Shown: positions 37,019-43,543 of the stretch, piece by piece | How the letters are laid out: each line of letters begins with the position of its first letter | Position numbering within the stretch: position 1 is the first letter of the stretch | From: an uncultured Gemmatimonadota bacterium | Lineage (GTDB): Bacteria; Gemmatimonadota; Gemmatimonadetes; Gemmatimonadales; Gemmatimonadaceae | Reading direction: 5' to 3' | Length of the DNA: 64,000 nucleotides | NCBI GenBank assembly: GCA_902826615.1 | Contig: CADEFN010000005.1 | Span: forward strand, 248,001 to 312,000 | The notes under the pieces: model-generated | The model's database searches: none | Told to the model about the DNA's origin: nothing | The model's input: only the letters and a program-made list of their open reading frames with translations | Program-made: the position numbers and the translations under genes

Positions 37019-37297
37019 ATGATCATCTCGTTCCGCGATGACGACACCGAGGCGCTGGCACATGGTCGCAGCACGAGACGTTTCACCAACATCGCTGCGG
37101 TGGCTAGACGGAAGCTCCGCCAGTTGGAGATCGCCGGGCGCCTTGAAGACCTGCGCGTACCGCCAGGGAATCGTCTGGAGGCACTGAAGGGTGACCGCGC
37201 TGGTCAGCACAGCATCCGGATCAACGATCAGTATCGTATTTGCTTTCGGTGGACATCGGCCGGCCCCACCGACGTCGAGATCGTGGACTACCATTGA
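37019..37297 (+). CDS. higB: HigB-type toxin (RelE/ParE superfamily)
   Basis: 92 residues. The sequence fits HigB: FRDDDTEALAHGRSTRRF at the start, ARRKLRQLEIAGRLEDLRVPPGNRLEAL in the middle and the conserved end HSIRINDQYRICFRWTSAGPTDVEIVDYH. HigB toxins are ribosome-dependent mRNA endonucleases. The antitoxin gene follows after 13 bases, in the toxin-first order usual for higBA. The ATG lies about on the predicted transcription start. Confidence 0.92.
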   Translation: MIISFRDDDTEALAHGRSTRRFTNIAAVARRKLRQLEIAGRLEDLRVPPGNRLEALKGDRAGQHSIRINDQYRICFRWTSAGPTDVEIVDYH

Positions 37298-37310
37298 CCC
37301 GAGGCTTCAC

Positions 37311-37610
37311 ATGCCCCCGCTCAAACCCGTCACACCCGGCGAGCTGCTGCTCGAAGAGTTTCTGGTCCCCATGCAGCTCTCCCAGTACCGCCTCGCCAAG
37401 GAGATCGATGTGCCGGCACAGCGAATCGGAGAGATCATCGCCGGCCGTCGGGCAATTACGGCCGATACAGACCTGCGGCTCTGCCGTTTCTTCGGGCTCT
37501 CGAATGGCTACTGGCTCCGTGCCCAGGCGGCGCATGACACCGAAGTCGCGGCCAAGGCGCTCGCGCCAGTGCTGCGCCGCATCAAGCCCTGGACCGGGCA
37601 CGCGGCGTAG
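37311..37610 (+). CDS. higA: HigA-type antitoxin (XRE-family helix-turn-helix)
   Basis: 99 residues from the ATG at 37311. The helix-turn-helix is in LSQYRLAKEIDVPAQRIGEIIAGRRAITADTDLRL, with the HigA family start PVTPGELLLEEFLVPMQLSQ and the end FFGLSNGYWLRAQAAHDTEVA. HigA binds and inactivates HigB and represses the operon, probably through the palindrome at 36995-37009. Confidence 0.92.
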   Translation: MPPLKPVTPGELLLEEFLVPMQLSQYRLAKEIDVPAQRIGEIIAGRRAITADTDLRLCRFFGLSNGYWLRAQAAHDTEVAAKALAPVLRRIKPWTGHAA

Positions 37611-38258: not shown

Positions 38259-38309
38259 GTGAGGGTCGCGCCGGAACGTCCGAACCATCTCACCTCAATC
38301 CGTCGGCAG

Positions 38310-38939
38310 ATGTCATCCCACGGCCCGTCACCAGATACTCGTCACCCCATCGCCGGGATCGAGCGCACCGGCTTTCTCAAGAACTTCATTACGCGCCCCA
38401 ACATCATTGTTGGCGACTACACGTACTACGATGACCCGCGCGGCCCGGCGCACTTCGAGTCAAACGTGTTGTACCATTTCGAGTTCACGGGTGACCGGCT
38501 GATCATCGGCAAGTACTGCTCCATCGCCACCGACGTGAAGTTCATCATGAACGGGGGCAACCATCCCACCACCTGGCTCACCACCTTTCCGTTTCCCGTC
38601 TTTGGTCAGGGGTGGGAGGTTGCGATGCCTTCGTCGTGGCCTAACAAGGGCGACACGGTGGTCGGTCACGACGTGTGGATGGGGTACGCCGCGATGGTCA
38701 TGCCGGGCGTAACCATAAACAACGGGGCCATTGTCGCCACGGGGTCGGTGGTGACGCGGGACGTGCCGAGTTACACCATTGTCGCCGGTAACCCCGCCCA
38801 GCCGGTGCGAAAGCGGTTCGACGATGCGACGATCGCTCGGCTCGAAGCGCTGCAGTGGTGGGATTGGGACATGGAGAAGGTGACGCGCAACGTAAAGGCG
38901 TTATGCAGCGGAGACGTCGCGGCGCTCGAGACCGCCTGA
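38310..38939 (+). CDS. Vat-type xenobiotic O-acetyltransferase
   Basis: 209 residues from the ATG at 38310. Left-handed beta-helix (hexapeptide) acetyltransferase of the Vat/CatB group: IIVGDYTYYDDPRGPAHFE, YHFEFTGDRLIIGKYCSIATDVKFIMNGGNH with the catalytic His in GGNH, PNKGDTVVGHDVWMGYAAMVMPGV and VVTRDVPSYTIVAGNPA. Known members acetylate streptogramin A or chloramphenicol using acetyl-CoA; many chromosomal relatives have not been tested. It could thus be a cryptic resistance gene. No mobile element is near, though it follows the higBA and DUF4256 genes. Confidence 0.85.
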   Translation: MSSHGPSPDTRHPIAGIERTGFLKNFITRPNIIVGDYTYYDDPRGPAHFESNVLYHFEFTGDRLIIGKYCSIATDVKFIMNGGNHPTTWLTTFPFPVFGQGWEVAMPSSWPNKGDTVVGHDVWMGYAAMVMPGVTINNGAIVATGSVVTRDVPSYTIVAGNPAQPVRKRFDDATIARLEALQWWDWDMEKVTRNVKALCSGDVAALETA

Positions 38940-39188: not shown

Positions 39189-39557
39189 ATGGTCATCGTT
39201 TCGGTCGAGGGAGATACCCTGGTGCTCGACGTGCAGGGGATGCACAAGCTGTGGGCGCTCAAGTCGAGCCTGCGGATCCCACTCGCAGACATCGTGAGTG
39301 TTCGCATCGATCCGGAGCGGGCGCGCGGTCCACATGGGCTGCGCTTTCCGGGAACTCACGTGCCGCTGGTCTACTTTGCCGGGACCGCATATCAGTCCGA
39401 TCTCCGGCCCGATTTCTGGACAGTGCACGATCCCGACAAGGCGATTGTTCTGCAGTGCCGGGACACGGCGGCGTACGACGAGATCATTGTTGAGGTGGCA
39501 GATCCACAGCACGATGTCTCGCTCATCACCAGAGCACTCGCCGAAGTGGCGAGGTAG
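39189..39557 (+). CDS. Small PH-domain-like protein of unknown function
   Basis: 122 residues from the ATG at 39189, preceded by GGAGGGA; the open frame goes further 5' but with no protein-like sequence. Strand-rich start (VIVSVEGDTLVLDVQG), then LWALKSSLRIPLADIVSVRIDPE, RFPGTHVPLVYFAGTAY and FWTVHDPDKAIVLQC, ending in a helix. This pattern occurs in bacterial PH-like domain proteins of about 120 residues, without known role. No signal peptide or membrane segment. The 250 bases before it (38940-39188) hold nothing I recognise. Confidence 0.7.
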   Translation: MVIVSVEGDTLVLDVQGMHKLWALKSSLRIPLADIVSVRIDPERARGPHGLRFPGTHVPLVYFAGTAYQSDLRPDFWTVHDPDKAIVLQCRDTAAYDEIIVEVADPQHDVSLITRALAEVAR

Positions 39558-39606
39558 TCCCTCTCGTCGTCGGATGGGACGTGGGCTGGTCTCAGCTCAA
39601 ACCGCG

Positions 39607-39702
39607 ATGGCGTGTGAACCTCTGCACTTCGCGCGTCATCCGGCCTGGTCGCCCGATGGCCGCTGGATCGCGTTCGACGGCAATCGAGACGGGATCGGCA
39701 CC
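39607..39702 (+). pseudogene. PD40/TolB propeller remnant, antisense to the regulator gene's 3' end
   Basis: On the plus strand the bases from 39637 read HPAWSPDGRWIAFDGNRDG, a near-perfect PD40 (WD40-like) propeller blade of TolB type, with no propeller gene around it. The blade sits over the last 20 codons of the minus-strand regulator gene. It is either the left-over of a deleted propeller gene or a chance result; the match to x-P-x-W-S-P-D-G-x-x-I-A-F is long enough to make chance unlikely. Confidence 0.5.
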
Positions 39703-41372
39703 GCAAACACCCGCCATCGCTCCTCGCGAGCGCCTAACGATCGCACTCCCCGGTCGGAAAAGGTGAGACCGGAGCCTGCGACAAGATCCTTCACCGTGCG
39801 TGACACCAGCACCTCCCCCGCCGTCGACGTCTCGGCCAGCGCGCGTGCCACGTCAAGCGCCGGGCCGGTGAGCTGAGCCCCGGTGGTGGCGCACTCACCA
39901 GTGTGCAGCCCCACCCGCACCTCGCACCCGAATTGCGACGCCACGGCGGCAAGCGCCGATGCACAACGGATCGCTCGCGCGGGGCCGTCGAATGCCGCGG
40001 TGAGGGCATGGACATCGCCGGACATCACACGCCCCCGGAACCGCTGGATATCGCGCCGCATGTGCGCCTCGAATGGCGCACTCTCCACTTCGCTGGAAGA
40101 TCCAACGACCACATGCATCAGGGTGGCCAGTACGCGCCCATCATCCACATCACTGGTCGCCTGACCGAGAAACCGCTCCACCTCATCGAGGAGTGCATCC
40201 TGATCGCCGACAAAGGGGAGATGATCGGCGCCGGGAAGCTCGGCAAAGGTCGCACCGGGAATCTGGGATGCGATATAGCGACCCTCCTCCACGCTGAAGC
40301 AGCGATCCTCAGTGCGATGCAACACCAGGGTGGGCACCCGCACCGCTGGCAGCACGTGACGCACATCGATCTCGGCGTTCATCTGTGTGAGCGTGAGTGC
40401 GGCGCCGGGGCTGGCGCCCATCCTCAGGTAGGTCGCCCACCACTGGCGAAAGACCGGATCGGATGCGCGCGACGGCGCACGGACTTCGAGCCCCACGGCA
40501 CCACCCCAGTGCTGCCGGATCTCCTCGAGGAAGGCGCTCTGCTCCGTCCGTCTTTGCGCCCACGGATAGTCCGGGGCCCAGAGTCGCCTGGCGTAGGTCC
40601 CGATCATCACCAGGGCCGACGTACGCGAGGGATAGGTGGTCGCAAAGAGTGTGCACAGCGGTCCGCCCTCCGACACGCCTAACAATGCAGCACGAGTCGA
40701 GCCGACGGCTTCGAGCACGGCACGCACATCATCCATGCGTTGCTCGAGGGTCGGCATATCAGACACCCGATCGGAAAGTCCTGTCCCGCGTTTGTCAAAG
40801 AGGATAAGCCGGGTGAACGACGCCAGCCGCCGGAGAAAACGCTCGAAGGACGGCTCACGCCAGAAGTAGTCGAGGTGCGACACCCACCCCATGACAAAGA
40901 CGAGGTCGATGGGGCCGTTGCCAAGGACCTGATACGCAATACTGACGTCGCCACTCCTGGCGTATCGCGTCACCGGGGGCGACATGTCCTCCGTGTTGTC
41001 ATCGATTGGCGCCGCGGTCGCCGATGGCCGCACCGCACTCGTCACCGTACCGATGAAGCGATATCCGCGGCGATGTACGGTCTGGATGTAGGCGGGGATC
41101 TGCGGAGTGTCGCCGAGTGTCTTGCGGATATCGCGAATGCAGACCTTGAGGGCGGCGTCACCGACGTAGGCACCCGGCCACACCGCGTCCAGGAAGGCTT
41201 CCCTGGTGACCAGCACACCCGCATGCCGGACCAGATGCAGCAACACGCTGAAAGCCTTTGGCGCGAGAGCCAGCGGTCGACCGTCTTGCTCGAGGGTCGC
41301 ATTGCGAACGTCGAGCCGGAACGGGCCGAAGTCGAAGAGTTCGGAGGGCTGACTGGTCATCGATGACAACAC
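39636..41372 (-). CDS. Fusion of winged-helix DNA-binding domain, alpha/beta hydrolase and degenerate class III cyclase
   Basis: 578 residues in three parts. Residues 10-110: OmpR/PhoB-type winged helix (LAPKAFSVLLHLVRHAGVLVTR, KVCIRDIRKTLGDTPQIPAYIQTVHRRGYRF). Residues 140-400: alpha/beta hydrolase with nucleophile in GVSEGG (S234), D356 and H384, intact triad. Residues 410-557: class III nucleotide cyclase-like; DGPARAIRCASALA, VGLHTGECATTG and GEVLVSRTVKDLVAGSGL match well, but the metal-binding FTDIVGST segment is MHVVVGSSSE, so the first Asp is lost and catalysis is doubtful. The last 20 residues are antisense to a PD40 remnant. Divergent from the multicopper oxidase gene, which it may control. 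Confidence 0.85.
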   Translation of the reverse strand: MLSSMTSQPSELFDFGPFRLDVRNATLEQDGRPLALAPKAFSVLLHLVRHAGVLVTREAFLDAVWPGAYVGDAALKVCIRDIRKTLGDTPQIPAYIQTVHRRGYRFIGTVTSAVRPSATAAPIDDNTEDMSPPVTRYARSGDVSIAYQVLGNGPIDLVFVMGWVSHLDYFWREPSFERFLRRLASFTRLILFDKRGTGLSDRVSDMPTLEQRMDDVRAVLEAVGSTRAALLGVSEGGPLCTLFATTYPSRTSALVMIGTYARRLWAPDYPWAQRRTEQSAFLEEIRQHWGGAVGLEVRAPSRASDPVFRQWWATYLRMGASPGAALTLTQMNAEIDVRHVLPAVRVPTLVLHRTEDRCFSVEEGRYIASQIPGATFAELPGADHLPFVGDQDALLDEVERFLGQATSDVDDGRVLATLMHVVVGSSSEVESAPFEAHMRRDIQRFRGRVMSGDVHALTAAFDGPARAIRCASALAAVASQFGCEVRVGLHTGECATTGAQLTGPALDVARALAETSTAGEVLVSRTVKDLVAGSGLTFSDRGVRSLGAREERWRVFAVPIPSRLPSNAIQRPSGDQAG

Positions 41373-41554
41373 ACAGCTCGAGCGCTGACAGGGGTCGGGA
41401 GATGGCGCATGGCCACGGGCGGCACGTGGGCACCGGCCCTTACGGAAGCATCACCTGACACATACTCCGCGCTCAGGATTGGGAGCCCCGTCAAAGCTAC
41501 ACTCTCCCCGGCAAAGGGAAGGTCAACCGGGACGGGAGAATGGGGGGTGTAACG

Positions 41555-43543
41555 ATGGAACGACACGTAACGCGCGGGCTGGGATCCTGGGGTCCTGGCT
41601 GCGCCAATGCACTGACAGCCGCGCCGACGCTGGTCGGGCGCTTGATACTGCTGTGCTCGTTGGGTTGTGGTCTGGCGTTTGCGGCCGAGCCGGCGAAGAA
41701 GGCGCCAGAGACGGTGCAGTCGAATGACAACCGACGCACTGCCGGCCAGGTCGAACGCGGTGTGGCGACCATCAGGCTGCGGGCCGCGAGCGGTCGGTGG
41801 CGGCCGGAGGGAGCGAAGGGGCCGACGCTGACCGTTGAGGCGTTTGGCGAAGTTGATGGGAGTCTGATGGTGCCGGCACCGCTGATTCGTGTGACGGAGG
41901 GCACAATCATCGCGCTGACCATTACCAATACCCTCGACGCACCGCTGAGTGTGCATGGCTTGTGCACGCGTGATGGGCGGCCCTGCCCCACCATCGACGT
42001 GGCGCCGCACCACACGCGGGAGTTGCGCTTCGAGAGTGGGCGTGCCGGCACGTACCACTACTGGGGATCGATCATCGGTGCGCCGGTGCCGTTTCGGGAG
42101 CTGGCCGGGGCTCTGGTCATTGACCCGCGCACAGGGCAGGAGGCCCCCGACCGCGTGTTCGTGATCACCGAATGGTCAGATCTCACAATGCAGCAACTCC
42201 TCGGCATTTTCGCCGCCGATGATGCGAATGAAGCGTTTGTCGCCGCAAAGCCGCATTTCACATTTGTCGTGAATGGTCTTTCCTGGCCCGCCACTGAGCG
42301 GCTGGAGGCAAAACGCGGAGAGAACGAGCGGTGGCGCGTGGTGAATCTCAGTTCACAGACCCATCCCATGCATTTGCATGGCTTCTACTTCCGGGTCAAG
42401 CGCACTGGTGATGGCGTGCGCAACCAGGTGGTCGATGGAGACATGGGACGCAGCGTGGTGACCGAGAGTGTGCCGGCCGGCGGCACGATCGACATCGAGT
42501 GGACTCCGGAACGCGAGGGCAACTGGCTCTTCCATTGTCACGTGATGAGTCACGTGGCACCGACACGACGCCTCCCCGTGGAGCCGACGAAGAAGGGTGC
42601 ACATACCATGTCGCATGGGCACGGGCATGACGACCCATCACTCGGCATGGCCGGGATGGTGCTTGGGATCACTGTGCTGCCGAGCGGTGGCGTGAAGCCG
42701 ACCAGCACGCCGATGCACTCTCCCGCACGCAAGATACGGTTTGCCATCGGAGCCAATCCTGGTAAGGGGGGAGCGATTGGTGTCTCGATCCGCGACGGCG
42801 CACAGCACGATGACACACCCACGCTCGTGTCGCCGGGTCCGCCCGTCGTGCTCCAGCGGGGCGAGTCGGTCGAGGTCACCGTCGAGAACCATCTCACCGT
42901 CGCCACCTCTATTCACTGGCATGGTCTGGAGATCGAGAGCTACTACGATGGCGTGCATGGATGGAGTGGAAAGGGAGGGCGGACGGCGCCAATGATTCCC
43001 CCCGGTGGATCGTTTGTCGTGCGGATGACGCCGCCGCGCTCGGGTACGTTCATCTACCACACACACCTGCACGACTTCACCCAACTCACGTCGGGTCTGT
43101 ATGGTGCGTTCATCGTCACGGAACCGGGCGAGACGTATGACCCCAGGAGCGATCATGTCCTGGTCATCGGCAGGAACGACTCTTCCGAGGTAGCGGGTAT
43201 TCTCGAGAGAAGCACTTCGGTGGTCGTGAATGGCAGCAATACACCGAAGCTTGTCCTGCAGGCAGGTCGCAAACATCGGCTTCGGCTGGTGAACATCACG
43301 CCTGACGATCTGCTGCGTATCTCACTCACACGACGCGACAAGGCCGTGACCTGGCGTCCCCTGGCAAAGGATGGAGCGACGCTCCCTGCGGAGGCAGCTT
43401 CATCTGCTCCGGCCACGGCCGTGCTGGCGGTCGGCGAAACGCTCGATGTCGAGTACGAAGCCACCGCTCCCATGTTGCTCTGGCTCGACATCAAAACGCT
43501 GAGTGGAAAGTGGCAGGCGCAGGGCCGCGTGAATGTGAAATGA
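41555..43543 (+). CDS. Multicopper oxidase with reversed order of copper motifs
   Basis: 662 residues from the ATG at 41555 with GGGGGG upstream; signal peptide ends near AFAA. Usual multicopper oxidases have HWHG and HxH first and HPxHLHG plus HCHxxxH last. Here HPMHLHG (270-276) and FHCHVMSH (326-333) come in the middle, then a His-rich stretch (HTMSHGHGHDD) and GMAGM, and only after this SIHWHGL (453-458) and YHTHLHD (501-507). The first domain has only relics (VHG at 134, YHYWGS at 167). All four histidine motifs for a trinuclear centre and the type 1 Cys are present. The product is probably an exported oxidase of unknown substrate. Confidence 0.82.
   Translation: MERHVTRGLGSWGPGCANALTAAPTLVGRLILLCSLGCGLAFAAEPAKKAPETVQSNDNRRTAGQVERGVATIRLRAASGRWRPEGAKGPTLTVEAFGEVDGSLMVPAPLIRVTEGTIIALTITNTLDAPLSVHGLCTRDGRPCPTIDVAPHHTRELRFESGRAGTYHYWGSIIGAPVPFRELAGALVIDPRTGQEAPDRVFVITEWSDLTMQQLLGIFAADDANEAFVAAKPHFTFVVNGLSWPATERLEAKRGENERWRVVNLSSQTHPMHLHGFYFRVKRTGDGVRNQVVDGDMGRSVVTESVPAGGTIDIEWTPEREGNWLFHCHVMSHVAPTRRLPVEPTKKGAHTMSHGHGHDDPSLGMAGMVLGITVLPSGGVKPTSTPMHSPARKIRFAIGANPGKGGAIGVSIRDGAQHDDTPTLVSPGPPVVLQRGESVEVTVENHLTVATSIHWHGLEIESYYDGVHGWSGKGGRTAPMIPPGGSFVVRMTPPRSGTFIYHTHLHDFTQLTSGLYGAFIVTEPGETYDPRSDHVLVIGRNDSSEVAGILERSTSVVVNGSNTPKLVLQAGRKHRLRLVNITPDDLLRISLTRRDKAVTWRPLAKDGATLPAEAASSAPATAVLAVGETLDVEYEATAPMLLWLDIKTLSGKWQAQGRVNVK

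Follow-up and report, generated by a model that had tools for sequence, protein, structure and literature searches.

The locus and its genes

The window, as the whole 64,000-nucleotide stretch of DNA analysed here is called, carries on its reverse strand an intact open reading frame of 578 codons, open from a GTG, whose product (P0001) joins a winged helix, an alpha/beta hydrolase and a class III cyclase-homology domain (CHD) in a single chain. A multicopper oxidase gene is divergent from it, and a 47-bp element lies in the gap between the two genes. The features are collected in Table 1, in which the domain boundaries are approximate.

Table 1. Features of the regulator gene and of the divergent oxidase gene, in positions of the window.
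Feature	Position	Strand	Basis
P0001, single-chain regulator: winged helix, alpha/beta hydrolase, pseudo-cyclase	39636..41372	-	Open reading frame, Pfam, NCBIfam, AlphaFold2 model
OmpR/PhoB-type winged helix (Trans_reg_C), residues about 11-113, without receiver domain	41034..41342	-	PF00486, 67.8 bits; strands and helices of the model
Alpha/beta hydrolase domain, residues about 134-405, triad intact	40158..40973	-	PF00561, alignments, PDB fold matches
Triad codon S234	40671-40673	-
Triad codon D356	40305-40307	-
Triad codon H384	40221-40223	-
Degenerate class III CHD, residues about 411-560	39693..40142	-	Sequence match to the Rv1900c CHD, fold (TM 0.86), residue table
Divergent multicopper oxidase, probable target gene	41540..43543 (start 41540 or 41555)	+	Pfam Cu-oxidase_2 and Cu-oxidase_3
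47-bp element, candidate operator, also present in the promoter of the G434 oxidase homologue	41436..41482	.	33/47 identical

An alternative start of the regulator, an ATG at residue 5 (41358-41360), would give a protein of 574 amino acids and is equally plausible; no obvious Shine-Dalgarno sequence was seen at either start. The ATG gives an N-terminus about as long as the one in L060, the closest orthologue, and the exact start is therefore left as GTG or ATG. A search of 39500-41700 for Sigma-70 promoters or terminators gave none. Elsewhere in the window, an open reading frame at 37191-37610 resembles a HigA-type antitoxin by eye (VTPGELLLEEFLVPMQLSQYRLAKEI), and a hexapeptide-repeat acyltransferase (PF00132) at 38259-38939 looks, again by eye, like the CatB/Vat-type xenobiotic acetyltransferases.

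Domain structure and predicted fold

A first-pass annotation, made from the letters of the DNA alone, had placed three domains in one chain, and this layout is borne out by the intact reading frame, by Pfam, by a match to the LipJ family and by the fold of the CHD. In Pfam, Trans_reg_C matches residues 31-106 with 67.8 bits against a curated cut-off of 26.2, as expected of an OmpR/PhoB-type winged helix, and Abhydrolase_1 matches residues 157-388 with 62 bits against a cut-off of 25.8. Response_reg gives no Pfam match in the protein, and the winged helix begins after only about 10 residues; the receiver domain with a phospho-acceptor Asp that defines a two-component response regulator is absent. 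The NCBIfam model of LipJ (lipase/adenylate cyclase, NF058673) matches residues 132-557 with 334.7 bits, which is under the family cut-off of 800 bits, so the protein falls outside the family proper.

The C-terminal domain escapes Pfam, in which Guanylate_cyc does not reach an E value of 0.05. The AlphaFold2 model of the full protein has a mean pLDDT of 91.5, with low confidence confined to the two termini and the linker 115-126. The structure comparison with this full model reached the hydrolase only, and the CHD was for that reason modelled separately (pLDDT 92.8). The best PDB match of the separate model is the CHD of Rv1900c (1ybu; TM 0.86, 31% identity), and phmmer pairs the same domain with the Rv1900c CHD 1ybt at an E value of 1.4e-16. 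The model confirms the cyclase fold, and on sequence match and predicted structure taken together the CHD is real, invisible as it is to Pfam.

The active sites of the two enzyme-like domains have fared very differently in the alignments. The hydrolase, whose predicted fold resembles esterases, RsbQ and D14/KAI2 in the PDB at Z scores of about 29-32, has both the fold and the Ser-Asp-His triad by which an alpha/beta hydrolase is recognised: S234, D356 and H384 align with the triad of the family, and the triad is as intact as had been claimed. The CHD had been described as catalytically degenerate, having lost the metal Asp of the FTDIVGST motif. This loss is confirmed (V422 at the first metal position), and the damage is larger than had been noticed, because the second metal position holds H455, the position of the catalytic Arg holds A511 and the Asn/His position holds D507. 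V422 and H455 rule out an intact metal site by alignment. Of the attributes of an active class III nucleotide cyclase, the protein thus has the CHD fold and lacks the two metal Asp residues and the catalytic Arg. It is worth pointing out that the Asn position carries His in most of the unfused relatives, and that Rv1900c likewise has a His where the catalytic Asn is expected (PMC4886424), so this position alone is no sign of inactivity. The other three changes, at V422, H455 and A511, do, as far as alignment can tell, indicate an inactive cyclase.

Fusion to an output and decay of the cyclase

Relatives were gathered by one scan of genome contigs, which gave 32 loci, and by whole-genome and plasmid searches, which added more. 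The comparison set holds 73 relatives, 34 of them fused to an output and 39 unfused hydrolase-CHD proteins. Most of the loci are from draft or metagenome-assembled genomes (MAGs), and organisms are named as in their records. Domains were assigned with Pfam for 29 proteins, including that of the window; the architectures of the others follow from alignment with, and resemblance to, these 29.

The hydrolase is found in a wide range of company. Among proteins that have a CHD, there are winged helix-hydrolase-CHD, winged helix-kinase-hydrolase-CHD and kinase-hydrolase-CHD forms, and also SARP(BTAD)-hydrolase-CHD, LuxR-hydrolase-CHD, hydrolase-CHD-LuxR and the unfused hydrolase-CHD. Winged helix-hydrolase, SARP-hydrolase and kinase-hydrolase proteins without a CHD are also present. 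A search for the three-domain order of the window protein met it as one open reading frame in many genomes, and a frameshift or split-gene artefact is ruled out. In an Anaerolineae MAG (L063, 4701-6659), an OmpR-type response regulator is encoded by a gene of its own, immediately upstream of a hydrolase-cyclase gene that is unfused and intact. This pair is possibly the unfused counterpart of the fusion; its arrangement differs from that in the window and does not amount to a frameshift of the regulator gene. The window's own genome has a second, distant relative (L002, contig C3, 306008-307276), with an N-terminal LuxR domain, a hydrolase and a dead CHD.

The state of the cyclase site follows the architecture closely. 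Metal pair and Arg are present in all 39 unfused proteins, whereas of the 34 proteins fused to a winged helix, SARP, LuxR or Ser/Thr kinase only one still has the metal pair. This rule was first read off an initial sample, in which every unfused protein had both metal Asp residues, whereas at least one was missing from nearly every fused protein. A second sample was then taken, of 396 genomes from the phylum to which G434 (the genome of L060) belongs; it yielded 17 more fused proteins (14 with a winged helix, two with a winged helix and a kinase, one with a kinase), all 17 without the metal pair, and two unfused proteins, both with the pair intact. To judge by these sequences, fusion of a LipJ-type hydrolase to another output goes with decay of the cyclase, the one exception being L075, of the SARP type, which is fused yet keeps both metal Asp residues.

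The hydrolase behaves in the opposite way: 33 of 34 fused proteins have the triad, as against 24 of 39 unfused ones. The 15 losses among unfused proteins are largely from actinobacterial records, and a few may be effects of alignment or of fragmentary sequences. Two loci in actinobacterial MAGs (L068 and L082) are tandem arrays of unfused hydrolase-cyclase genes, several of which have lost the triad and have intact cyclase sites.

Origins of the fused forms

In trees built from the hydrolase only, the fused proteins lie in four groups. The first holds the winged-helix and kinase forms (23 sequences; 100/99); the second, the SARP forms, adjoins unfused proteins of Rhizobium and Sinorhizobium (100/99); the third consists of the proteins with a C-terminal LuxR domain (100/100), and the fourth of those with an N-terminal LuxR domain, including one with the domain at the C-terminus. 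A single clade of the winged-helix/kinase and SARP groups is rejected by the AU test (p-AU 0.0003), as is one of the winged-helix/kinase and C-terminal LuxR groups (p-AU 0.0028), the groups in these tests having been named after inspection of the tree. Fusion accompanied by cyclase loss would, on these trees, have occurred independently three to four times. A winged helix-hydrolase protein without a CHD (L076) sits among the unfused proteins and is possibly a fifth fusion event. Every switch on the tree runs in the same direction, and with three to four events a sign test cannot reach significance. Because the fused groups nest among unfused proteins, the decay can be placed with or after fusion; the argument does not extend to the basal N-terminal LuxR group.

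The window protein pairs with L060 (100/99) inside the 23-member family, which is otherwise drawn from genomes labelled Acidobacteria or as that phylum. Among 395 sampled genomes of the window's own phylum, the winged helix-hydrolase-CHD form was found in the window's genome only. The nested position suggests that the gene was probably acquired from elsewhere, and horizontal transfer is the simplest account of its presence.

The divergent oxidase and a shared element

The first-pass annotation had proposed that the winged helix switches the divergent oxidase operon. Part of the evidence for this comes from G434, where a full-length homologue of the oxidase (53%) and the regulator orthologue L060 (70%) lie on one contig. 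The two genes are again divergent, about 4.7 kb apart, with at least one clear gene between them (a TPR plus alpha/beta hydrolase protein). The oxidase family is common in the window's phylum, being present in 111 of 395 sampled genomes, but the match in G434 scores 675.8 bits against a best of 462.5 among the other sampled genomes of that phylum. When the window's neighbouring genes were searched against the orthologue loci, the oxidase alone emerged as a neighbour that the closest orthologue shares. The second part of the evidence is the 47-bp element. The number of identities between its two copies was reached by none of 300 dinucleotide shuffles, and its conserved core of 41 bases, allowing up to three mismatches, occurs once in the 5.9 Mb of the window's genome; the consensus was derived from two sequences only, those of the window and of G434.

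Two observations, the linkage of the oxidase's closest homologue to the nearest regulator orthologue in a different phylum and the element that the two loci have in common, make the oxidase a likely target, with moderate support and as a candidate only. The proposal is weakened by the other orthologues: in the surroundings read for 17 further fused orthologues the oxidase was nowhere present, and its control would therefore be an arrangement local to two genomes.

The same facts could be read in another way, in which regulator and oxidase were simply acquired together and the 47-bp match is a remnant of homology in the DNA that was transferred. The nesting of the regulator in a family otherwise from the phylum of G434 fits such a joint transfer, and so does the finding of the best oxidase match in that same foreign genome. 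We consider it rather unlikely as the whole explanation, since the element is inverted relative to the oxidase between the two loci, which collinear homology would not give, and since other gene content separates regulator and oxidase in G434. The inversion argues against plain inherited homology; at the same time it fits a simple operator model less neatly.

The oxidase has a peculiarity of its own. Its Cu-oxidase_2 domain (236-339, with copper motifs of the C-terminal type) comes before Cu-oxidase_3 (432-529, of the N-terminal type), the reverse of the usual order, so by its domain matches it looks like a permuted multicopper oxidase. A literature search on permuted oxidases found nothing relevant.

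Apart from the regulator/oxidase pair in G434, there is in general no conserved neighbourhood across the orthologues. A beta-lactamase-fold gene lies 3' of the regulator in seven orthologous loci (L173, L175, L176, L178, L181, L184 and L187), PF00144 being confirmed for the protein downstream of L173; it lies in a longer conserved gene order and may be inherited context only. Genes of the carboxymuconolactone-decarboxylase family are found downstream of two hydrolase-CHD-LuxR genes, and in the same set of loci (L098, L099 and L100) a 'peroxidase-related enzyme' adjoins a winged helix-hydrolase gene. These neighbours are a possible lead to the class of ligand.

Proposed mode of action

We take the window protein, with somewhat more confidence than doubt, to be a one-component regulator that senses through its hydrolase, has the winged helix as its output and a pseudo-cyclase as its scaffold, and has the oxidase as its likely target. 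It would be a soluble transcriptional regulator built on a hydrolase-cyclase module of the LipJ/Rv1900c type that has exchanged its output for another. The alpha/beta hydrolase would bind, and probably cleave, a small ester or lactone-like signal; the N-terminal winged helix would bind DNA in the gap shared with the oxidase; the C-terminal cyclase fold, with its catalytic site lost, would serve as a structural and most likely dimerising domain that transmits the signal.

The hydrolase is assigned the role of sensor because it and its triad are common to the fused forms, the cyclase site is dispensable, and the CHD is sometimes gone altogether. The earlier suggestion of a one-protein sensor-regulator is supported in this respect, as near-universal retention of the triad and loss of the metal pair in fused proteins would be expected if the hydrolase senses and its output has been replaced. 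The hydrolase is possibly a receptor that also cleaves its ligand. The intact triad could equally be cited for a protein that is mainly an enzyme, its winged helix tethering the hydrolase or autoregulating its own gene and the oxidase being a passenger, and the absence of the oxidase near the 17 other orthologues would suit this. We find it improbable, though, since the hydrolase has repeatedly been joined to three kinds of DNA-binding domain as well as to kinases, a pattern that a sensor fits better than a free enzyme.

As for the CHD, the active form of class III cyclases is a dimer (PMC4886424), and a dimerising scaffold is for that reason the most economical guess. The first reading of the sequence had also suggested that the dead cyclase may bind a nucleotide. 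In the canonical way this is unlikely, with both metal ligands and the catalytic Arg lost. A wider version, in which the CHD binds ATP, cAMP or a similar nucleotide non-catalytically as a second input, would take its support from the retention of the domain in all 23 members of the winged-helix/kinase family and of the motifs FDGPxRAIRCA, GLHTGEC and SxTVKDLVAGSG in most of them, which speaks for some function under selection. However, these motifs are about as conserved in the unfused relatives and look structural, and the metal, Asn/His and Arg positions, all replaced in the window protein, vary across the fused family, so a nucleotide input has little to recommend it beside the scaffold that we propose.

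Comparison with known systems

The nearest known system is Rv1900c/LipJ of Mycobacterium, a hydrolase with a class III adenylyl cyclase (1ybt, 1ybu), which has the same order of hydrolase and CHD. The window protein differs from it in lacking the metal pair and the Arg and in having an added N-terminal DNA-binding domain. To our knowledge, no input signal has been found for hydrolase-cyclase fusions such as Rv1900c. One-component regulators like CadC and HilA resemble the window protein in their N-terminal Trans_reg_C without a receiver domain; their sensor is a periplasmic or TPR domain, in place of which the window protein has an alpha/beta hydrolase and a pseudo-cyclase.

RsbQ and the plant proteins D14 and KAI2 are alpha/beta hydrolases that act as signal receptors and have the fold and an intact triad in common with the window protein (Z 29.8 for RsbQ, 1wom, and about 30 for D14), at only 18-23% identity and with ordinary esterases scoring equally. 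They offer an analogy in working, their partner proteins being different and the likeness being one of fold only. Aspartate-less receiver domains (PMC4395418) parallel the CHD of the window protein in having lost a catalytic residue and yet being retained in a regulator; their fold and chemistry are unrelated to those of the CHD. Literature searches in open-licence papers found no description of the architecture of the window protein.

What the family may mean

A more general picture can be put forward tentatively, as an idea that we think somewhat less likely to be right than wrong. The LipJ-type hydrolase would be a general, transferable bacterial receptor module that binds and cleaves its ligand as D14/KAI2 do and connects to five outputs or more (cyclase, OmpR-type winged helix, SARP, LuxR and Ser/Thr kinase); after fusion, the cyclase would become a non-catalytic dimer transducer and then disappear. 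If the hydrolase is indeed the constant sensor and the cyclase one interchangeable output, the DNA-binding versions would give an easy reporter-gene readout with which ligands could be found. The cyclase, having decayed after fusion several times independently, would in turn be a clear case of an enzyme turning into a scaffold, with the intact and the decayed versions available side by side.
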